DNA from: Oscillospiraceae bacterium
Lineage (GTDB): Bacteria; Bacillota; Clostridia; UMGS1810
NCBI GenBank assembly: GCA_015068825.1
Contig: SVJU01000012.1
Span: 1 to 61,340, forward strand
DNA length: 61,340 nt
Direction of reading: 5' to 3'
How positions within the stretch are numbered: position 1 is the stretch's first letter; every line of letters starts with the position of its first letter. The translations under genes were made by a program, and so were the position numbers. A model generated the notes under the pieces. It was not told the DNA's origin. It did no database searches and saw nothing but the letters and a program-made list of their open reading frames with translations. Shown here one piece after another: positions 3,696-12,740 of the stretch.

Positions 3696-3716
3696 TAAAA
3701 AGGAGTTTTGATAGAT

Positions 3717-5507
3717 ATGTTTATAACAAATGATATCAAATATGTAGGTGTAAACGACCACGAGGTTGATTTGTTTGAAGGTCAGTATCCGGTAGAAAAT
3801 GGTATGGCATACAATTCATACATTATTATGGATGAAAAAATTGCAGTCATGGATACTGTTGATGCCCGCTTTACTCATCAATGGCTTGATAATGTTGAAA
3901 ATGAACTTGGCGGCAGTAAACCCGATTACATTATCATTCAGCATATGGAGCCGGACCACTCTGCAAATATTTTAAACTTTATGAACACATATCCTGATAC
4001 CAAAATAGTTGCAAGCGAAAAAACATTTGGTATGATAATGCAGTTTTTTGGAAAAGACTTTGCAGATCAGAGAATTATTGTTGGCGAAGGTGATACATTA
4101 AACCTTGGAAAACATACCCTTACATTTGTTACTGCTCCAATGGTGCATTGGCCGGAGGTTATTGTTACTTATGACAGCTTTGATAAAGTTCTTTTCTCGG
4201 CAGACGGCTTTGGAAAATTCGGTGCACTTGATGTAGAAGAAGAATGGGCGTGTGAAGCAAGAAGATATTATTTTGGTATTGTTGGAAAATACGGCGTACA
4301 GGTACAAAACCTATTAAAAAAGGCAGCAGGGCTTGATATTAAAATTATATGTCCTCTTCACGGACCTGTTTTAAATGAAAATTTAGAATATTACTTAAAC
4401 CTTTATAATATATGGTCATCTTATCAGTCAGAGGATGAAGGTGTTGTAATTGCATATACTTCTGTTTATGGCGGCACAAAAGCAGCAGTTGAAATGCTCA
4501 CACAAAAATTGCTTTCAAAAGGGGCACCGAGCGTTAAAGTTTTTGATCTTGCAAGATGCGATATGACAGAGGCTGTGGAAGATGCTTTCAGATACAATAA
4601 ATTAGTTTTGGCAACAACAACCTACAATGCAGAAATCTTTCCGTTTATGAGAACATTTATAAATCATCTTACCGAAAGAAACTATCAGTCAAGACAGGTT
4701 GCATTTATCGAAAATGGTTCGTGGGCACTTCTTGCTGAAAAAGTTATGAAGGGTATGCTTGAAAAGAGTAAAAACCTTACATTCTGTGAAAATACCGTTC
4801 ACATTAAATCACGATTAAACGATGAGAGCAAAAAACAGGTTGAATGTCTTGCGGAAGAACTTTGCAAGGAATACATTGCTCAAAAAGGTGACAATGTTGA
4901 TAAAAATGATTTTTCAGCGCTTTTTAAAATTGGTTACGGACTTTATGTTGTTACATCAAATGATGGCAAAAAGGATAACGGACTTATAGTAAATACTGTT
5001 GCACAGGTTACAGATACACCAAACAGAATTGCCGTTACAATAAATAAACAGAATTATTCGCATCATGTTATAAAGCAAACAGGTATAATGAATGTTAACT
5101 GCTTATCTAACGATGCACCATTTTCAATATTTGAAGACTTTGGATTTAAAAGCGGTCGTAATGCGAATAAATTTGAAAATATTACTCCTCTTTATTCAGA
5201 AAATGGTCTTGCATTTTTACCAAGATATATAAATGCTTTTATGTCGCTTAAGGTTGAAAGTTATGTTGACCTTGATACACATGGTATGTTTATCTGCTCT
5301 GTAACAGAATCAAGAGTTATTACTGATGGTGAAACAATGACATATACCTATTATCAGAATAATGTTAAGCCCAAACCAAATACCGAAGGTAAAAAGGGAT
5401 ATGTATGCAAAATCTGTGGATATGTTTACGAGGGAGATACGCTTCCTGATGATTTTGTGTGTCCTTTGTGTAAACACGGACCTATAGATTTTGAAGAAAT
5501 CAAATAA
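3717..5507 (+). CDS. Flavodiiron protein with flavin-reductase-like and rubredoxin domains
   Basis: 596 residues in four modules. First is a metallo-beta-lactamase-like diiron domain (about 1-245) with the HMEPDH ligand motif at 76-81. Second is a flavodoxin-type FMN domain (about 245-390, YTSVYGGTKAAVE). Third is a flavin-reductase-like domain (about 400-545, VNTVAQVTDTPNRIAVTINK). Last is a C-terminal rubredoxin (YVCKICGYVYEG and CPLCKHG Cys pairs). Family members reduce O2 to water or NO to N2O with electrons passed through rubredoxin and FMN, protecting anaerobes. Fusing the reductase and rubredoxin gives a largely self-contained electron path. Start at the ATG 3717, eleven bases after AAAGGAG; a TTG at 3708 is too close to that site. 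The next promoter begins three bases after the stop. Confidence 0.93.
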   Translation: MFITNDIKYVGVNDHEVDLFEGQYPVENGMAYNSYIIMDEKIAVMDTVDARFTHQWLDNVENELGGSKPDYIIIQHMEPDHSANILNFMNTYPDTKIVASEKTFGMIMQFFGKDFADQRIIVGEGDTLNLGKHTLTFVTAPMVHWPEVIVTYDSFDKVLFSADGFGKFGALDVEEEWACEARRYYFGIVGKYGVQVQNLLKKAAGLDIKIICPLHGPVLNENLEYYLNLYNIWSSYQSEDEGVVIAYTSVYGGTKAAVEMLTQKLLSKGAPSVKVFDLARCDMTEAVEDAFRYNKLVLATTTYNAEIFPFMRTFINHLTERNYQSRQVAFIENGSWALLAEKVMKGMLEKSKNLTFCENTVHIKSRLNDESKKQVECLAEELCKEYIAQKGDNVDKNDFSALFKIGYGLYVVTSNDGKKDNGLIVNTVAQVTDTPNRIAVTINKQNYSHHVIKQTGIMNVNCLSNDAPFSIFEDFGFKSGRNANKFENITPLYSENGLAFLPRYINAFMSLKVESYVDLDTHGMFICSVTESRVITDGETMTYTYYQNNVKPKPNTEGKKGYVCKICGYVYEGDTLPDDFVCPLCKHGPIDFEEIK

Positions 5508-5647: not shown

Positions 5648-6442
5648 ATGAATAAATTAAAAAATAAAAAGCTTTTTTTACTTGATATGGATGGAACAAT
5701 TTATCTTGGAGATAAGCTCTTTGATGGAACATACGATTTTCTTAATCATATTAAAGAGATAGGTGGAAGATATATGTTTCTTACAAACAATTCTTCCAAA
5801 AGTGTAGATGCTTACATACAAAAACTGGATAAAATGGGAATTAAGTCTACAAAAGACGACTTTTTAACATCAACTGATGCAACAATTTATTTTTTGAAAA
5901 AGAAAAATCACAAAAAAATATACGCTTTGGGAACAAATTCTTTTAAAGAGCAGTTAAAAAGTGATAATTTACCAATAACAGATAAATTAGAAGATGATAT
6001 TGATTGTCTTTGCATGGGATTTGATACCGAGCTTACTTTCAAAAAACTTGAGGATGCGTGCATACTTTTAAATAAAGATATTGACTATATTGCAACAAAT
6101 CCTGACTGGGTTTGCCCAACATCATTTGGCTCTGTTCCTGATTGCGGGTCAATAAGCTCAATACTTAAAAACGCAACAGGTAAAATGCCGTATTTTATTG
6201 GAAAACCTCAGCCTCTTATGGTAGAACTTGCTGTTGAAAAATCAGATTTTACAAAGGAAGAAACCGTTCTTATGGGCGACAGACTCTATACCGATATTGC
6301 CTGTGGAATAAATGCTGATATAAGCACAATTTTTGTGTTAAGCGGTGAGGGTACAATGGAAGATGTAGAAAAAAATAGCGAAAAACCTGAATATATCTTT
6401 GAAAATATAAGAGCGCTTTATAATTTTTTAAAGGAGAAATAA
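5648..6442 (+). CDS. HAD-IIA family phosphatase (NagD/AraL/PGP-like)
   Basis: 264 residues. The nucleophile motif DMDGT is at 13-17, motif II is FLTNNSSKS, the motif III lysine lies in GKPQPLM, and motif IV is MGDRLYTDI. The large C2-type cap between residues 75 and 185 places it in subfamily IIA (NagD, AraL, p-nitrophenyl and glycerol-3-phosphate or phosphoglycolate phosphatases). It is the first gene of an operon for glycerol-3-phosphate oxidation and ends two bases before the next ATG. A glycerol-3-phosphate phosphatase role is therefore an attractive inference, but the sequence alone does not fix the substrate. GAAGGGG precedes the ATG. Confidence 0.88.
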   Translation: MNKLKNKKLFLLDMDGTIYLGDKLFDGTYDFLNHIKEIGGRYMFLTNNSSKSVDAYIQKLDKMGIKSTKDDFLTSTDATIYFLKKKNHKKIYALGTNSFKEQLKSDNLPITDKLEDDIDCLCMGFDTELTFKKLEDACILLNKDIDYIATNPDWVCPTSFGSVPDCGSISSILKNATGKMPYFIGKPQPLMVELAVEKSDFTKEETVLMGDRLYTDIACGINADISTIFVLSGEGTMEDVEKNSEKPEYIFENIRALYNFLKEK

Positions 6443-6444
6443 AA

Positions 6445-7887
6445 ATGAGCAACAATATATATGATATTGCAATAATCGGCGCAGGTGTTATCGGCGGTAT
6501 GATTGCAAGAAATCTTTCCAAATATGATTTAAATATTGCAATAATTGAAAAAGAAAATGATGTTGCAATGGGTGCAACAAAAGCAAATTCTGCAATAGTT
6601 CACGCAGGTTTTGATGCAAAAGAAGGCACACTTAAGGCAAAGCTTAATGTAGAAGGCTCAAAAATGATGGAGCAAATTGCAAAAGAACTTGGTGTAAAAT
6701 ATGAAAAAAACGGCTCAATGGTTATAGGTTTTGATAATGATGATAAAAAAACACTTGAAACACTGCTTGAAAGAGGTATGAAAAATGGTGTTGCGGGTCT
6801 TAAGCTTATAGAAAAAGGCGAAATTAAAGCCCTTGAACCAAATTTATCTGGTGAAGTTAAATATGCACTTTTTGCCCCTTCGGGTGCAATAATATGCCCT
6901 TACGAGCTTACAATTGCTGCAATAGGGAATGCAATGGATAATGGTGTAGAGCTGAAAAGAAATTTTTTGGTTAAAAACATTGAAAAAAAAGATTTTGGTT
7001 TTGAAGTTTTTTCATCAAACGAAAGTATAAAAACAAAATATATCATTAATGCTGCGGGTGTTTTTGCAGATGAAATTTCAAAAATGGCAGGAGATTCATC
7101 TTTTAAAATTACACCAAGAAGAGGCGAATATATCTTACTTGATAATGAGTGTAAAAATCTTGTAAGCCATACAATATTTAAAACTCCTGATAAAATGGGA
7201 AAGGGAATACTTGTATCACCAACTGTTGACAAAAATATCATTCTTGGACCTACTGCTGAGGATATAATTGATAAAGATGATAAATCCACAACCACCAAAG
7301 GTTTTGAAAAAATTATTTCACTTGCAAAAAAATATACCGATAAGGTTGAGATAAATAAATCTATAACTTCATTTTGCGGGTTAAGAGCAGTAGCAGACAC
7401 AGATGATTTTATTATAAATTCGCCAATTGATGGTTTTATAAATGTTGCAGGAATTGATTCGCCAGGATTATCCTCATCACCTGCAATTGCACTTTATGTT
7501 GAAAACATATTAAAAGATGTTGGATTTAAATTTAAAGAAAAAGAAAATTATAATCCTACACGAAAAAGTATGACGTATTTTAAAGATGCAAGCATAGAAG
7601 AAAAAAATGAAATAATAAAAAAAGATAAATCGTTTGGAAAAATTGTATGCCGTTGTGAAATTGTTACCGAAGGTGAAATAAAAGAAGCAATCAGATTAAA
7701 TCCTCAGCCTTATGATTTAGATGGTGTAAAAAGAAGAACAAGAGCACAAATGGGAAGATGTCAGGGAGGATTTTGCACTCCCTATATTGTAAAGCTTTTG
7801 TCCGAAGAATTAAAAATTCCATATGAGGATGTTACAAAGTCTGGAAAAGGCTCAAAAATCAATGTTGGCAAAACAAAGGAGGCTTAA
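6445..7887 (+). CDS. FAD-dependent glycerol-3-phosphate dehydrogenase-like protein with BFD-type [2Fe-2S] domain
   Basis: 480 residues. The N-terminal FAD Rossmann motif is IIGAGVIGGMIARNL, followed by a DAO-type fold, matching the GlpA/GlpO and L-2-hydroxyglutarate oxidase superfamily. The last about 90 residues hold a BFD-like [2Fe-2S] domain with Cys at about 402, 404, 439 and 444 (CRC and CQGGFC). In clostridia this gene with the next two forms an anaerobic three-subunit dehydrogenase, and here GlpP follows, so glycerol-3-phosphate is the likely substrate. AAAGGAG precedes the ATG. Translationally tight with the HAD gene (2-base gap) and the next gene (6-base gap). Confidence 0.88.
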   Translation: MSNNIYDIAIIGAGVIGGMIARNLSKYDLNIAIIEKENDVAMGATKANSAIVHAGFDAKEGTLKAKLNVEGSKMMEQIAKELGVKYEKNGSMVIGFDNDDKKTLETLLERGMKNGVAGLKLIEKGEIKALEPNLSGEVKYALFAPSGAIICPYELTIAAIGNAMDNGVELKRNFLVKNIEKKDFGFEVFSSNESIKTKYIINAAGVFADEISKMAGDSSFKITPRRGEYILLDNECKNLVSHTIFKTPDKMGKGILVSPTVDKNIILGPTAEDIIDKDDKSTTTKGFEKIISLAKKYTDKVEINKSITSFCGLRAVADTDDFIINSPIDGFINVAGIDSPGLSSSPAIALYVENILKDVGFKFKEKENYNPTRKSMTYFKDASIEEKNEIIKKDKSFGKIVCRCEIVTEGEIKEAIRLNPQPYDLDGVKRRTRAQMGRCQGGFCTPYIVKLLSEELKIPYEDVTKSGKGSKINVGKTKEA

Positions 7888-7893
7888 GTTGAT

Positions 7894-9135
7894 ATGGAAA
7901 AAGAACTTGTCATAATAGGTGGCGGTCCTGCGGGAATGAGTGCTGCAATAAAGGCTTATGAATGTGGAATAAAAGATATTCTCATCATTGAAAGAGATGC
8001 CTGTTTGGGCGGAATACTTAATCAATGTATCCACAATGGTTTTGGACTTCATAAATTTAAAGAAGAACTAACAGGCCCCGAATATGCCTACCGATACGAA
8101 AAAAGAGTTAAAGAACTGAATATAGAAGTTAAACTTAATACAATGGTTATTGATATATCCGAAGATAAAACAATATGTGCAACAAATGAGGAGGATGGCA
8201 TATTTTTTATAAATGCAAAGGCTATAATTCTCGCAATGGGATGCAGAGAAAGACCAAAAGGCGCACTTAATATTCCAGGTGACAGACCATCAGGAATTTT
8301 CAGTGCCGGATGCGCTCAGAAATTTGTTAATATCGAAGGTTATATGCCAGGTAAAAATGTTGTGATTTTAGGCTCAGGTGATATTGGCCTTATTATGGCA
8401 CGAAGAATGACATTAGAGGGTGCAAAGGTTCATGCAGTATGCGAACTTATGCCATATTCGGGCGGTCTTGCAAGAAATATTGAGCAGTGCTTGAATGATT
8501 TTAATATTCCATTAAAGCTTAGCCATACTGTTGTAAAAATTCATGGTAAGGAAAGGCTTGAAGGTGTTACAATAGCAAAGGTTGATAAGAATAGAAAACC
8601 AATTATGGAAACAAAAGAATATATTCCATGCGATACACTTCTTTTGTCAGTTGGACTAATTCCTGAAAATGAACTTACCAAAAAAGCAAATATTTTGTTA
8701 AACAGAATAACAAACGGAGCAAATGTAGACCAGAACCGACAAACTGAAAAAGAAGGGATTTTTGCTTGCGGTAATGTACTACATGTTCACGACCTTGTGG
8801 ATTTTGTTTCAGAGGAGGCAGAAATTGCCGGAGAAGGTGCGGCAAACTATATTAATAATAATATTTTAAAGGATACCGAAATAAATCTTGAAACAGACGG
8901 TAAAATTAGATATACCGTTCCACAGAAAATCACTTTAAAAAAAGATGTAAAAGTATACTTCAGGGTATTGGATATTTATAAAAATGTGAAAATCAATGTT
9001 TATAATAATAAAAATGAACTTGTTTTTTCAAAACCGAAGGCAAAATGTGCTCCTGGTGAAATGGAGTGTGTAATACTTAAAAAAGAGATGCTTTCTGATA
9101 CTGATGCTCTTAAATTTTCTATTGTTGAGGGGTAG
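7894..9135 (+). CDS. NAD(P)/FAD-dependent oxidoreductase, GlpB-like partner
   Basis: 413 residues. A FAD-binding IIGGGPAGMSAAIKA is at the N-terminus and a second nucleotide-binding Gly motif (VVILGSGDIGLIMARRM) near residue 152. This is a two-dinucleotide-fold flavoprotein with a CGN-type closing motif (GIFACGNVLHVHDL). It partners the preceding dehydrogenase in clostridial glp operons, passing electrons from glycerol-3-phosphate to NAD(P)+ or another carrier. AAAGGAGG just before the previous stop serves as its ribosome binding site. The last about 90 residues (from YTVPQKITLKKDV) form a small beta domain typical of this subgroup. Confidence 0.88.
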   Translation: MEKELVIIGGGPAGMSAAIKAYECGIKDILIIERDACLGGILNQCIHNGFGLHKFKEELTGPEYAYRYEKRVKELNIEVKLNTMVIDISEDKTICATNEEDGIFFINAKAIILAMGCRERPKGALNIPGDRPSGIFSAGCAQKFVNIEGYMPGKNVVILGSGDIGLIMARRMTLEGAKVHAVCELMPYSGGLARNIEQCLNDFNIPLKLSHTVVKIHGKERLEGVTIAKVDKNRKPIMETKEYIPCDTLLLSVGLIPENELTKKANILLNRITNGANVDQNRQTEKEGIFACGNVLHVHDLVDFVSEEAEIAGEGAANYINNNILKDTEINLETDGKIRYTVPQKITLKKDVKVYFRVLDIYKNVKINVYNNKNELVFSKPKAKCAPGEMECVILKKEMLSDTDALKFSIVEG

Positions 9136-9198
9136 AAAAAAATCCCCTTGTAAAAAGAATTTGTGTTTGATATAATTAACTTTAAGGAAGTGTAATGA

Positions 9199-9543
9199 AT
9201 GAAAAAGCTTACCTGCATAGTGTGTCCGTTAGGATGTGAAATATCTGTTTATGGTGAAAAAGATAATTTTAATGTAACAGGCAACGGATGCATTAGAGGC
9301 AAAGAATATGCAATTGGTGAAATGACAAATCCTGTGCGATGTGTTACAACAAGTGCCAAATGTGATAACGGAAAGATAGTTTCTGTTAAAACTCAGAATC
9401 CAATTCCAAAACAAAACTGCAAAGAATGTGTTGAATTTATAAATAAGGTAACTGTTAAAACACCTGTAAAAATCGGTGATATCATTCTGGAAAATGTTTT
9501 TGGTACAAATATTATTGCCACAAAAAATATTCAAGGAGAATAA
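9199..9543 (+). CDS. DUF1667 domain protein, Cys-rich electron-transfer subunit
   Basis: 114 residues with Cys at 6, 9 and 13 (CIVCPLGC), a further Cys near 31 (GNGCIRGKEY), and later Cys at KCD and NCKEC. The CxxCxxxC head looks like the iron-sulfur binding start of molybdopterin oxidoreductases. DUF1667 proteins almost always follow the two FAD enzymes encoded just upstream and are thought to be a third, small redox subunit. The start at 9199 follows AAGGAAG. A 4-base gap separates it from glpP. Confidence 0.87.
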   Translation: MKKLTCIVCPLGCEISVYGEKDNFNVTGNGCIRGKEYAIGEMTNPVRCVTTSAKCDNGKIVSVKTQNPIPKQNCKECVEFINKVTVKTPVKIGDIILENVFGTNIIATKNIQGE

Positions 9544-9547
9544 TAAA

Positions 9548-10102
9548 ATGGATAAATTTGCGCCTAATAGTGTTATTGCGTCAGTAACATCTTATGAAGA
9601 TTTAGAATATGCAATTATGTCGGAAATTGAGTATGTATTTTCTTTATCGACTAACATTTTAACTTTGTATGATACAATAAAAAGGGTACATAGTAAAAAT
9701 AAAAAAATATATATCCATACCGATTTTACAGAGGGAATAGGAAAGGATAAATATGCCCTTATGTTTATGAAAAAGCTTGGCGTTGACGGAATTGTAAGTA
9801 CCCGTTCAAATATTATAAAAATGGCACGTGAATTAGGGCTTTCTACTGTGCAAAGATTTTTTATAGTAGATTCTCATTCGGTTAATACAACTATTGAAAG
9901 TATTAAAGCATCAAAACCCGATATGGTCGAAATAATGCCTGGAATTATTCCAAAGGTTATAACTGCCATAAAAAAAGAAATTGATAAACCACTTATTGCA
10001 GGCGGACTTATAACAAGCAGAAAAGAGATTGACGAAGCTTTTAAGGCAGGGGCAGATGGTGTATCTATGAGTAATAAAAATTTCTGGAATAAATTTAATT
10101 AA
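9548..10102 (+). CDS. glpP: Glycerol-3-phosphate responsive antiterminator GlpP
   Basis: 184 residues with a TIM-barrel-like GlpP fold. Recognisable segments are VIASVTSYEDLEYA, KKIYIHTDFTEGIG, GVDGIVSTRSNIIK and IAGGLITSRKEI. In Bacillus subtilis, GlpP binds glycerol-3-phosphate and leader mRNA and prevents termination ahead of glp genes. Here it is the last gene of the operon, whose own leader holds a strong terminator at 5562-5608, so it probably controls its own transcription. The frame is open upstream, but the ATG at 9548 follows AAGGAGAA and matches the family start. An intrinsic terminator follows directly. Confidence 0.92.
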   Translation: MDKFAPNSVIASVTSYEDLEYAIMSEIEYVFSLSTNILTLYDTIKRVHSKNKKIYIHTDFTEGIGKDKYALMFMKKLGVDGIVSTRSNIIKMARELGLSTVQRFFIVDSHSVNTTIESIKASKPDMVEIMPGIIPKVITAIKKEIDKPLIAGGLITSRKEIDEAFKAGADGVSMSNKNFWNKFN

Positions 10103-10106
10103 AAAG

Positions 10107-10134
10107 GCGTTTTCTTTGTGAAAACGCTTTTTTT
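10107..10134 (+). terminator. Intrinsic terminator of the glp operon
   Basis: Stem GCGTTTTC (10107-10114) with GAAAACGC (10120-10127), five-base loop, then seven T residues. Confidence 0.85.
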
Positions 10135-10139
10135 GATTA

Positions 10140-10168
10140 TTGACAAGTATCTTTGCTGATAATATAAT
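10140..10168 (+). promoter_or_regulatory. Consensus promoter for the GTPase-NYN fusion gene
   Basis: TTGACA at 10140-10145, 17-base spacer, TATAAT at 10163-10168: a perfect sigma-A consensus, ending 34 bases before the ATG. The short leader leaves little room for an attenuator of the tet(M) type. Confidence 0.8.
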
Positions 10169-10202
10169 TTAAAGTAAGTAATTTTTAACGGAGATACAAA
10201 AA

Positions 10203-12740
10203 ATGAAGAAATTGGTTGTTGGAATACTTGCACATGTTGACTCGGGCAAAACAACGCTTTGTGAGGCTCTTTTGTATAAATCGGGTGAGATTTCAAATCT
10301 TGGCAGAGTAGACCATAAAAACGCATATTTAGATACAAATTCAATAGAAAAAGACAGAGGAATTACTATTTTTTCAAAACAGGCAATAATAAATCTGGAA
10401 AATACAAAAATTTCTCTTTTAGATACTCCCGGGCATGTTGATTTTTCGGCAGAAACCGAAAGGGTTCTTTCTTGTTTGGATTATGCCATACTTGTTATAA
10501 GTGGGTCAGAAGGAGTGCAAAGCCACACGCAAACACTGTGGCGTCTTTTGGAAAGTTATGGTGTTCCTGCATTTGTTTTTGTTAATAAAATGGATTTAAT
10601 ATCAGCTGATAAACAAAAGATTTTAACTGATTTAAAGCAGAAGTTAAGCGATGGATGTATAGATTTTGAAAATAAAAATGACTTGTTTTTTGAAAGCATT
10701 GCGATGCAGGAAAACGACCTTTTGGACGAATATTTGGAAAATGGTTTTGTTTGCGATGAAAATATAAAAAGTGCAATTTTGTCAAGAAATATTTTTCCGT
10801 GCTTTTTTGGCTCGGCTTTAAAAGTAGAAAAAATATCAGAATTTTTAAATGCGCTGGATAATTATACTATTCAAAAAAAGTATCCTGATGAGTTTGGGGC
10901 AAAGGTATATAAAATTTCTGATGACGAAAAAGGCAAACGCCTTACTCATCTTAAAATAACAGGCGGAAGTCTTAAAGTAAAAGATATTTTGCCTGATGGT
11001 GAAAATGAGAGCAAAATCAATGAAATAAGAGTTTATTCTGGTGCAAAATATCAGAATGTGCAAGAGGGTTGTGCAGGTGAAGTTTGTGCAGTTTTGGGGC
11101 TTTCAGATTCTTTTTGCGGAATGGGACTTGGATTTGAAGAAAACTCTTCGTCACTTATACTTGAGCCTGTTTTTACTTACAGTGTGAAAATTCTTGATAA
11201 TACCGACCTTACAACTGCCTTATCCATATTTAAAAAGTTAGAGCAGGAAGAAACCCAGATGAATGTTGTTTTTAATGAACGCCTTCAAAAAATTGATGTG
11301 CAGATTATGGGTGATATTCAGCTTGAAGTGTTAAAAAGAATTTTATGTGACAGGTTTAATATCAGCGTGGAATTTGAAGACGGAAGCATTATTTATAAAG
11401 AAACAATAAAAAACACAGTTGAGGGAGTAGGCCATTACGAGCCACTAAGGCATTATGCAGAGGTTCATCTTTTGCTTGAACCCAACAAAAGAGGAAAAGG
11501 AATTGAAATAAAGGCTGATTGCTCTTTTGATACACTTGACAAAAACTGGCAAAGACTTATACTTACGCATATCGGTGAAAAAACACATCTTGGAGTTTTA
11601 ACAGGCTCGCCCATTACCGATATTAAAATAACTCTTATAAACGGAAGGGCACATCAAAAGCACACCGAAGGCGGTGATTTCAGGCAGGCAACATATCGTG
11701 CTATCCGTCAGGGATTAATGCAGGCTCATAGTGTTCTTCTTGAGCCATACTATGATTTTGTGCTCGAAGTTCCAATCGAAAATTCCGGAAAGGCACTTAC
11801 AGATTTAGACTTTATGGGAGCTTCTTTTTTACCTTCTGAGCAAAGAGGTGATGCTACAGTTATTAAAGGTTATGCACCTGTATCAAAATTAAGAGATTAT
11901 CACAAAAGTGTTATTCAGTATACTCACGGAAATGGAAGGTTAAGTCTTTCTTTTAAAGGCTATGATGAATGTAAAAATGCGGACGAAATCGTAGAAAAAA
12001 TTGGTTATGATGCTGAAGCTGATGTTGAAAATACACCTGATTCTGTTTTTTGCACGCATGGTGCAGGATATCTTGTAAAGTGGAACGAAGTTTTCGAAAA
12101 AATGCATATACCTGCATTTAATCCTAATAAAGATGATAAAGAACTTATTGTTGCGCCAAAAAGATATCAGAAATTGATTGCAGATGAAGAAGAGCTTTTG
12201 AAAATCTTTGAGCAAACATACGGAAAAATTAAAAGAAAAGTGCATAATCCCTTAAAAACAGAAAAACACAATCAAAGCTATAAGGGTAAAAAAGTAATAT
12301 CAGGGCCTGAATATCTTTTGATTGACGGATACAATATAATTTTCGGCTGGGAAAAGCTTAAAGAAATCGCACTTGATAATCTTGAAATAGCAAGAATTTA
12401 TTTAATAGACAGAATTTGTAATTATCAGGCAATGAAAAAGAATAATGTTATTCTTGTTTTTGATGCATATAAGGTTAAAGGTGCAGTAAGAGAAATAGAA
12501 AAACATCACGGCATTACAGTTGTTTATACAAAAGAAGCCGAAACTGCCGATGTGTATATAGAAAAAACTTCTACCGAGCTTGCCAGAAATTATCGTGTAA
12601 GAGTTGCAACAAGCGATAATCTGGAGCAGATAATCGTTTTTGGACACGGTGCTCACAGAATTTCTGCCCGTGAATTTTTGGAAGAAGTTGAAATGTTTGA
12701 AGATAAAATGAGAAAATTTATCGAAGAAAACAGAGAATAG
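10203..12740 (+). CDS. Tet(M)/EF-G-like translational GTPase fused to a YacP/Rae1-type NYN ribonuclease domain
   Basis: 845 residues. Residues 1 to about 650 match ribosomal-protection proteins and EF-G: G1 AHVDSGKT at 10-17, G3 DTPGH, G4 NKMD, then domains II-V (for example GGDFRQATYRAIRQG). A linker leads to an NYN/PIN-like domain at about 700-845. It has LIDGYNIIFGW (D708), VFDAYKVKG (D754), EAETADVYIEK (D783) and VATSDNLEQ (D805). The order and spacing of these acidic residues match YacP/Rae1, a ribosome-bound A-site mRNA endonuclease of Bacillus. The GTPase half would bind the ribosome at the factor site and the nuclease half could cut mRNA there. Tetracycline resistance is possible but unproven. 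It stands alone under a consensus promoter and shares a terminator with ruvB. Confidence 0.9.
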   Translation: MKKLVVGILAHVDSGKTTLCEALLYKSGEISNLGRVDHKNAYLDTNSIEKDRGITIFSKQAIINLENTKISLLDTPGHVDFSAETERVLSCLDYAILVISGSEGVQSHTQTLWRLLESYGVPAFVFVNKMDLISADKQKILTDLKQKLSDGCIDFENKNDLFFESIAMQENDLLDEYLENGFVCDENIKSAILSRNIFPCFFGSALKVEKISEFLNALDNYTIQKKYPDEFGAKVYKISDDEKGKRLTHLKITGGSLKVKDILPDGENESKINEIRVYSGAKYQNVQEGCAGEVCAVLGLSDSFCGMGLGFEENSSSLILEPVFTYSVKILDNTDLTTALSIFKKLEQEETQMNVVFNERLQKIDVQIMGDIQLEVLKRILCDRFNISVEFEDGSIIYKETIKNTVEGVGHYEPLRHYAEVHLLLEPNKRGKGIEIKADCSFDTLDKNWQRLILTHIGEKTHLGVLTGSPITDIKITLINGRAHQKHTEGGDFRQATYRAIRQGLMQAHSVLLEPYYDFVLEVPIENSGKALTDLDFMGASFLPSEQRGDATVIKGYAPVSKLRDYHKSVIQYTHGNGRLSLSFKGYDECKNADEIVEKIGYDAEADVENTPDSVFCTHGAGYLVKWNEVFEKMHIPAFNPNKDDKELIVAPKRYQKLIADEEELLKIFEQTYGKIKRKVHNPLKTEKHNQSYKGKKVISGPEYLLIDGYNIIFGWEKLKEIALDNLEIARIYLIDRICNYQAMKKNNVILVFDAYKVKGAVREIEKHHGITVVYTKEAETADVYIEKTSTELARNYRVRVATSDNLEQIIVFGHGAHRISAREFLEEVEMFEDKMRKFIEENRE

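Follow-up and report, generated by a model that had tools for sequence, protein, structure and literature searches.

The window, which is the whole stretch of 61,340 nucleotides of DNA that was analysed, carries an open reading frame with an ATG start (10203..12740, +; open reading frame and Pfam) whose 845 amino acids comprise an EF-G/Tet-type GTPase (residues 1-640), a disordered linker and a Rae1-type NYN nuclease (703-845). The upstream neighbour is a glycerol-3-phosphate antiterminator gene (G3P_antiterm), whose terminator-like hairpin (10101..10133, +) has 14 pairs and a T tail and is followed directly by a consensus promoter, TTGACA-17-TATAAT (10140..10168, +), matching at 12/12 positions. 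A GGAG, read directly from the letters, is a probable ribosome-binding site (10190..10193, +) nine bases 5' of the ATG. Since the promoter ends 34 bases 5' of the ATG, a leader or attenuator of the tet(M) type has no room, in keeping with the original prediction of a separate consensus promoter and no such leader. Downstream lie ruvB-ruvA-ruvC in convergent orientation and, judged from the window context and the genome's own sigH locus, the gene is not situated between rlmB and sigH. Neighbour clustering across 48 fused loci found no conserved neighbours common to them, bar two families of generic transporter look that recur at 8 and 6 of the 48.

Just 5' of the fusion gene, the window also contains a compact glycerol-3-phosphate cluster (5648-10102, +) encoding a HAD phosphatase, a FAD oxidoreductase with a BFD domain, a pyridine nucleotide oxidoreductase, DUF1667 and, last, the G3P antiterminator. 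A further gene (3708-5507, +) encodes a 599-residue protein in which a flavodiiron-type ODP lactamase domain is combined with a flavin reductase domain and whose C terminus appears rubredoxin-like by eye.

Within the fusion protein, the G domain (5-222; 10215..10868, +) was matched by Pfam GTP_EFTU at 175.5 bits, EF-G domain IV (395-508; 11385..11726, +) by EFG_IV at 68.5 bits and domain V (511-592; 11733..11978, +) by EFG_C at 58.2 bits; domains II (232-303; 10896..11111, +; EF-G_D2, 25.6 bits) and III (321-392; 11163..11378, +; EFG_III, 22.6 bits) scored below the cut-off of 27 and lie inside the structural match at 1-606. With the G-domain motifs and domains II-V present, this part is a translational GTPase of the EF-G type. 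The domain IV tip loop, GRAHQKHTEGGDFR (481-494; 11643..11684, +), places K486/H487 at TetM P509/V510 in the alignment. Domain V is succeeded by a clade-specific extension (593-640; 11979..12122, +) with the motif SVFC..G..V.W......H and pLDDT mostly above 90, and then by the linker (641-702; 12123..12308, +), in which pLDDT falls below 50 at 644-661 and 676-696 and which includes a short conserved helix (662-674, EELLKIFEQTYGK region; 12186..12224, +; helix 662-673 in the predicted model). The nuclease domain (703-845; 12309..12737, +) is of the Rae1/YacP NYN type by Pfam, structure and sequence match, without the tail of free Rae1; the NYN_YacP match at 705-844 reached 163.2 bits against a cut-off of 24.6. 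Its residues D708 (12324..12326, +), D754 (12462..12464, +), D783 (12549..12551, +) and D805 (12615..12617, +) are invariant in fusions.

An AlphaFold2 model of the fusion, built from an alignment of 79 rows, had a mean pLDDT of 89.5 and a pTM of 0.72, and its GTPase part superposed on about 600 residues of EF-G chains with Z up to 42. Folded alone, the NYN part had a pLDDT of 90.2 and superposed on B. subtilis Rae1 (5mq9) with a TM of 0.84 and an rmsd of 1.7-1.9; 5mq8 and 5mq9 were the only structure entries with E < 0.001 for this model and also matched by sequence (E 1.3e-29). The structure prediction thus returned an EF-G fold joined to a Rae1 fold, and the original description of an EF-G-like GTPase fused to a Rae1-type nuclease with four acidic residues holds by Pfam, sequence and fold match.

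Conservation and distribution in Clostridia

Conservation was assessed in two sets, namely 31 full-length class-sample fusions (the window and 30 others from a sample of Clostridia class genomes, these being 46-61% identical to the window protein) and 79 named rows (the window and the 78 alignable rows from the 80 named loci that were the best of 589 in a genome_contigs scan). D708, D754, D783 and D805 are all D in 31/31 of the former and in 79/79 of the latter (best 80 of 589 loci), so that the active-site residues on whose retention the original prediction depended are kept in homologues. In the same named rows from the best 80 of 589 loci, G-domain D13, K16, D74, K129 and D131 are present in 79/79, H78 in 78/79 and N128 in 73/79, tip residues H487, T488, G491, D492 and R494 in 79/79, and linker-helix residues E664, I668 and G674 in 75/79, 77/79 and 69/79, respectively. 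The linker is otherwise poorly conserved and disordered, and the stretch between residues 592 and 701 varies from 107 to 158 amino acids among the 31 full-length fusions.

Two further observations concern individual residues and lineages. C590 and C617 (79/79) and H619 and H635 (78/79, again in named rows from the best 80 of 589 loci; window 11970-12107) lie in and after domain V and form a possible candidate metal site; H619 is kept in only 4/15 unfused GTPase rows. Two divergent fusions from family f2, L163 (5010-7532, G209) and L164 (4685-7387, G001), show changes around the P-loop and in the tip loop and retain all four NYN Asp residues despite these altered GTPase motifs. The two parts are therefore not evolving in lockstep, and these lineages may be retaining the nuclease as their GTPase decays.

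The NYN_YacP and GTPase searches were combined across 292 genomes sampled from the class Clostridia, and NYN_YacP was present in 193/292. The sample divided into 103 genomes with the fusion (including four, G234, G045, G196 and G164, that are contig-end fragments or frame breaks), 90 with another NYN only and 99 with neither, where another NYN denotes an NYN match to which no GTPase is fused at E 1e-100 and about 40 open-frame lengths fall outside the listed matches. The fusion and other NYN proteins excluded one another (Fisher p 1e-17 with three apparent second copies counted, a value that is too small because the genomes are related). These three copies in fused genomes scored 21.3-21.5 bits against the cut-off of 24.6 and covered 47 positions, and in two of the three the frames, by eye, presumably resemble Lrp/AsnC regulators. 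As the copies are below the cut-off and in unrelated frames, a second NYN over the cut-off occurs in 0/103 fused genomes, and the window's own assembly (96% complete) contains no NYN_YacP besides the fusion. Both a search for further EF-G/NYN fusions, which recovered the 103, and the expectation of no separate yacP accordingly favour the original prediction, and an architecture recurring in 103/292 genomes of the class is not a chance one. Viral contigs provided 0/49 loci with a match extending into the NYN domain, plasmid records had both parts side by side only on two large Clostridia records, and PADLOC models matched the fusion protein with 0 families at E 0.01, giving no known anti-phage defence match. 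As far as the sampled sequences go, the fusion is a chromosomal gene that is widespread in Clostridia and excludes free Rae1 from the genomes carrying it.

The presence of an NYN protein is not universal among close relatives. G118, the only other genome of the window's genus (93% complete), has neither an NYN nor the GTPase and G096, of the same family, has no NYN, which indicates either that the function is dispensable or that the assemblies are incomplete. The window's own assembly has a separate EF-G above the cut-off and a tmRNA; among its EF-G profile matches there is no EF-Tu-length frame, and the str operon may therefore be missing from the assembly. The GTPase occurs unfused in 17/292 genomes, of which 11 have a free NYN and 6 are without any NYN, implying independent uses for the GTPase, which is not necessarily a partner of Rae1. 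Co-occurrence of the Rosetta-stone kind was unsupported, with a free NYN in 11/17 unfused-GTPase genomes against 79/172 of the other non-fused genomes (Fisher p 0.20).

Relationship of the GTPase to Tet proteins and EF-G

The original prediction also assigned the GTPase to the ribosomal-protection class, with a link to drug-stalled ribosomes, and this part was not supported. Against the NCBIfam model for tetracycline ribosomal protection, NF012153, the window protein scored 400.9 bits versus a cut-off of 775 and eight unfused relatives scored 393-457, compared with 883 and 1001 for two genuine Tet proteins in the same sample. The EF-G equivalog TIGR00484 gave 280.4 bits against a cut-off of 659.4, although the fold is shared with EF-G. 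By sequence, TetO (E 4e-68) and TetM (E 9e-66) are the nearest solved structures; these proteins (4v6v, 3j9y) have the same five-domain EF-G-like fold, aligned over residues 1-588, but differ from the fusion in tip loop, curated score, C-terminal extension and gene context.

The difference at the tip concerns residues that contact the drug in TetM. Q485-K486-H487 are aligned on TetM Ser508-Pro509-Val510, the part of domain IV that clashes with bound tetracyclines and in which a role is ascribed to Pro509 (PMC7456112). Position 486 is K in 31/34 fused, 15/15 unfused and 78/79 named rows (best 80 of 589 loci), and no Pro stands at the TetM P509 position in any of the 34 fused, 15 unfused or 79 named rows, so the TetM tetracycline-contact residues are replaced by differently conserved ones. 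The SVFC..G..V.W extension is common to fused and unfused relatives and absent from two Tet(M)-type rows, and in the GTPase tree the fused and unfused rows together split from these two rows with a support of 99, this being a quick tree in which many forks, including the order of the fused and unfused lines, are unsettled. Five fused genomes (G042, G139, G223, G255 and G270) have an additional Tet-class match of 383-400 bits among the matches listed, and the G042 protein, the sole one of the five scored, is above the Tet(M) cut-off. On these sequence comparisons, with half the curated score and a domain IV tip conserved in another form, the GTPase is not to be regarded as a Tet protein.

The unfused GTPase clade, which includes members in family f35, Paenibacillus cellulosilyticus and Ligilactobacillus salivarius, lacks an NYN domain, and its rows in the class sample have the HTxGGDFR tip and SVFC-like extension, as in the fusions. 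TetB(P) of a named plasmid, which is similar in length, was considered as an identity for this clade and rejected, being 32% identical to an unfused relative in an alignment that stops at residue 594. One unfused member of 644 amino acids (L234, 2986-4920) lies near rpsN on the Ligilactobacillus salivarius megaplasmid pMP118 and is annotated TetM/TetW/TetO/TetS, and 33 Ligilactobacillus records match an unfused relative at E<=1e-100.

The rlmB-sigH slot and the C-terminal tail of Rae1

The gene order in B. subtilis is mrnC-rlmB-rae1-sigH, and Clostridia with a free NYN have rae1 beside rlmB and sigH. B. subtilis Rae1/YacP (5mq8, 5mq9) has the NYN fold and four acidic residues in common with the fusion, but it is a free protein of about 170 amino acids with a C-terminal tail, encoded in that operon, whereas the fusion has neither tail nor operon. 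The location of sigH was searched in 20 hand-picked genomes, 17 fused and 3 free, with a match in 14 and 3, respectively. The gene rae1 lies beside sigH in 3/3 free-NYN genomes, with rlmB alongside in two and the contig ending first in the third. In 10/14 fused genomes with a sigH match rlmB adjoins sigH, and an intact rae1 lies between them in 0/10. A search of the ten gaps with a profile built from 26 free NYN proteins, compared with 100 dinucleotide shuffles for each gap, revealed a decayed, stop-broken rae1 on the sense strand in 4/10 slots (G023, 8.5e-13; G100, 3.2e-5; G141, 5.1e-4; G144, 5.5e-3), each better than all shuffles (0/100 as good); in the other 6/10 the profile match was no better than shuffles. 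Within genus g29, G053 lacks a GTPase of the fusion clade and its slot holds an intact rae1; its congeners G123, G184, G219, G023 and G266 have the fusion. We infer from this pattern the loss of a redundant gene, with either form having been lost in different lineages.

An NYN tree, built after six partial or lone-half rows had been excluded and the surplus columns of the over-long L165 filtered, placed 33/34 fused rows in one clade together with one free NYN (97/100). L163 stood apart on a long branch, which may represent a second origin of the fusion. The free NYN inside the fused clade (L021, 1483-2004, G220) lies outside the rlmB-sigH slot, has the near-complete tail LEKIRL and may be either a relative of the donor or a product of fission.

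The tail itself provides a further difference between the two forms. The motif L[EDQ][KREN][IWLMFV]R[RK], defined on the class sample, is found in 24/26 free NYN proteins and is absent from fusions, at 0/31 in the class sample and 0/79 in the named rows (best 80 of 589 loci), the latter being a fresh test set of fusions only. Variants of the LEKxRR-like consensus include FEKWRR in B. subtilis and the LEKIRL of G220. R166P, a missense change within the B. subtilis Rae1 tail, is one of the rae1 suppressor mutations classed by the authors as loss of function (PMC6613710). The distribution of the motif suggests that free Rae1 docks by its tail, which became unnecessary once the fused GTPase took over docking. 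Given the absence of this conserved tail, the fusion is a variant and not a free-type Rae1.

Proposed function and alternative explanations

The gene is probably this organism's form of Rae1, in which the EF-G-like GTPase would serve as a docking module for a nuclease that cuts mRNA on paused ribosomes; its reading as a replacement of Rae1 draws on the mutual exclusion, the empty or decayed slots and the loss of the tail. Rae1 is described as attacking mRNA within the A site (PMC12320835), and Tet-type factors overlap EF-G and tetracycline there, with GTP hydrolysis apparently needed for release (PMC8161019). The original view has both halves acting in the A site, but simultaneous occupancy is impossible and, since domain IV and the NYN domain cannot share one A site at the same time, the mechanism requires either a hand-off or cleavage elsewhere. 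In the proposed sequence of events, the GTP-bound factor would bind paused or stalled ribosomes with an empty A site and the domain IV tip, with its invariant HT-GGDFR loop, would check the decoding centre. Hydrolysis of GTP would then lead domain IV to withdraw, and the NYN domain, on its linker of about 60 residues, would replace it and cut A-site mRNA, which is the action proposed for B. subtilis Rae1. Degradation of the truncated mRNA would follow, and tmRNA would free the ribosome. In the main variant, cleavage by the NYN domain would take place on the side where mRNA enters, or else on a neighbouring ribosome.

A fuller model is offered tentatively, in which the action of Rae1 would be GTP-gated, an EF-G-like factor sampling vacant A sites and hydrolysis swapping domain IV for the tethered nuclease, so as to act as a timer distinguishing paused ribosomes from translating ones. 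Under this model free Rae1 and the fusion would have coexisted before reciprocal loss, the GTPase replacing the docking tail, and the unfused GTPase and free Rae1 may act in trans. A rather unlikely alternative is that the two activities are uncoupled, the GTPase having a separate ribosomal task such as rescue, translocation help or recycling and the NYN domain being an ordinary Rae1 on a flexible tether. The GTPase clade without NYN in 17/292 genomes, 6 of them lacking NYN anywhere, the unfused 644-residue protein of Ligilactobacillus salivarius and the disordered, poorly conserved linker are all consistent with such independence, but the loss of the tail in fusions and the conserved linker helix suggest mutual adaptation.

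Tetracycline protection with an added RNase, the possibility raised by Atkinson 2015, appears improbable. That published suggestion (PMC4342817), the ranking of TetO and TetM as closest solved structures by sequence and the NCBI annotation of relatives as TetM/TetW/TetO/TetS family are countered by a score of 401 bits where the cut-off is 775, with unfused relatives at 393-457 and genuine Tet proteins at 883 and 1001, and by the lack of a Pro in register with TetM P509 among the 34 fused and 15 unfused rows. TetB(P) is only 32% identical to an unfused relative and aligned to residue 594 only, five fused genomes have a separate Tet-class match among the matches listed, and the gene has neither conserved neighbours in 48 loci nor attenuator space on its 5' side. 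A nuclease for stable-RNA maturation or ribosome assembly is the least probable reading, and a most doubtful one. Such a role was reportedly first predicted for NYN domains by Anantharaman and Aravind in 2006, as cited in PMC4342817, and free rae1 does share its operon with the RNA enzymes mrnC and rlmB; however, B. subtilis Rae1 destabilises mRNA in a translation-dependent manner (PMC10100781), and it is to this protein that the window NYN is closest among solved structures.

The original statement that no characterised example is known needs qualifying, given that the fusion was already in print. Atkinson 2015 (PMC4342817) reports, from ten Clostridiales, Tet proteins that carry a YacP-like NYN domain, with possible resistance, and these have the same architecture and taxonomic group as the fusion; they were placed in the Tet subfamily, whereas here the clade stands apart from two Tet(M)-type rows (99) and there is evidence for Rae1 replacement. 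The literature search, whose coverage of the closest Rae1 papers was incomplete, found no study characterising the fusion beyond that mention. Within the literature covered, there appears to be no precedent for the replacement of Rae1, its decayed slots, the loss of the tail or the non-Tet tip.

If the proposed function is true, the fusion would show how a translational GTPase can control an A-site nuclease and would provide a natural construct for studying how Rae1 finds paused ribosomes. A common gene of gut Clostridia and its unfused Ligilactobacillus salivarius relatives are often labelled as tetracycline resistance, for which the sequences give no support, and this matters for resistome counts. 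Many gut Clostridia carry Rae1 joined to an EF-G-like GTPase, and this joined form has apparently taken the place of free Rae1.
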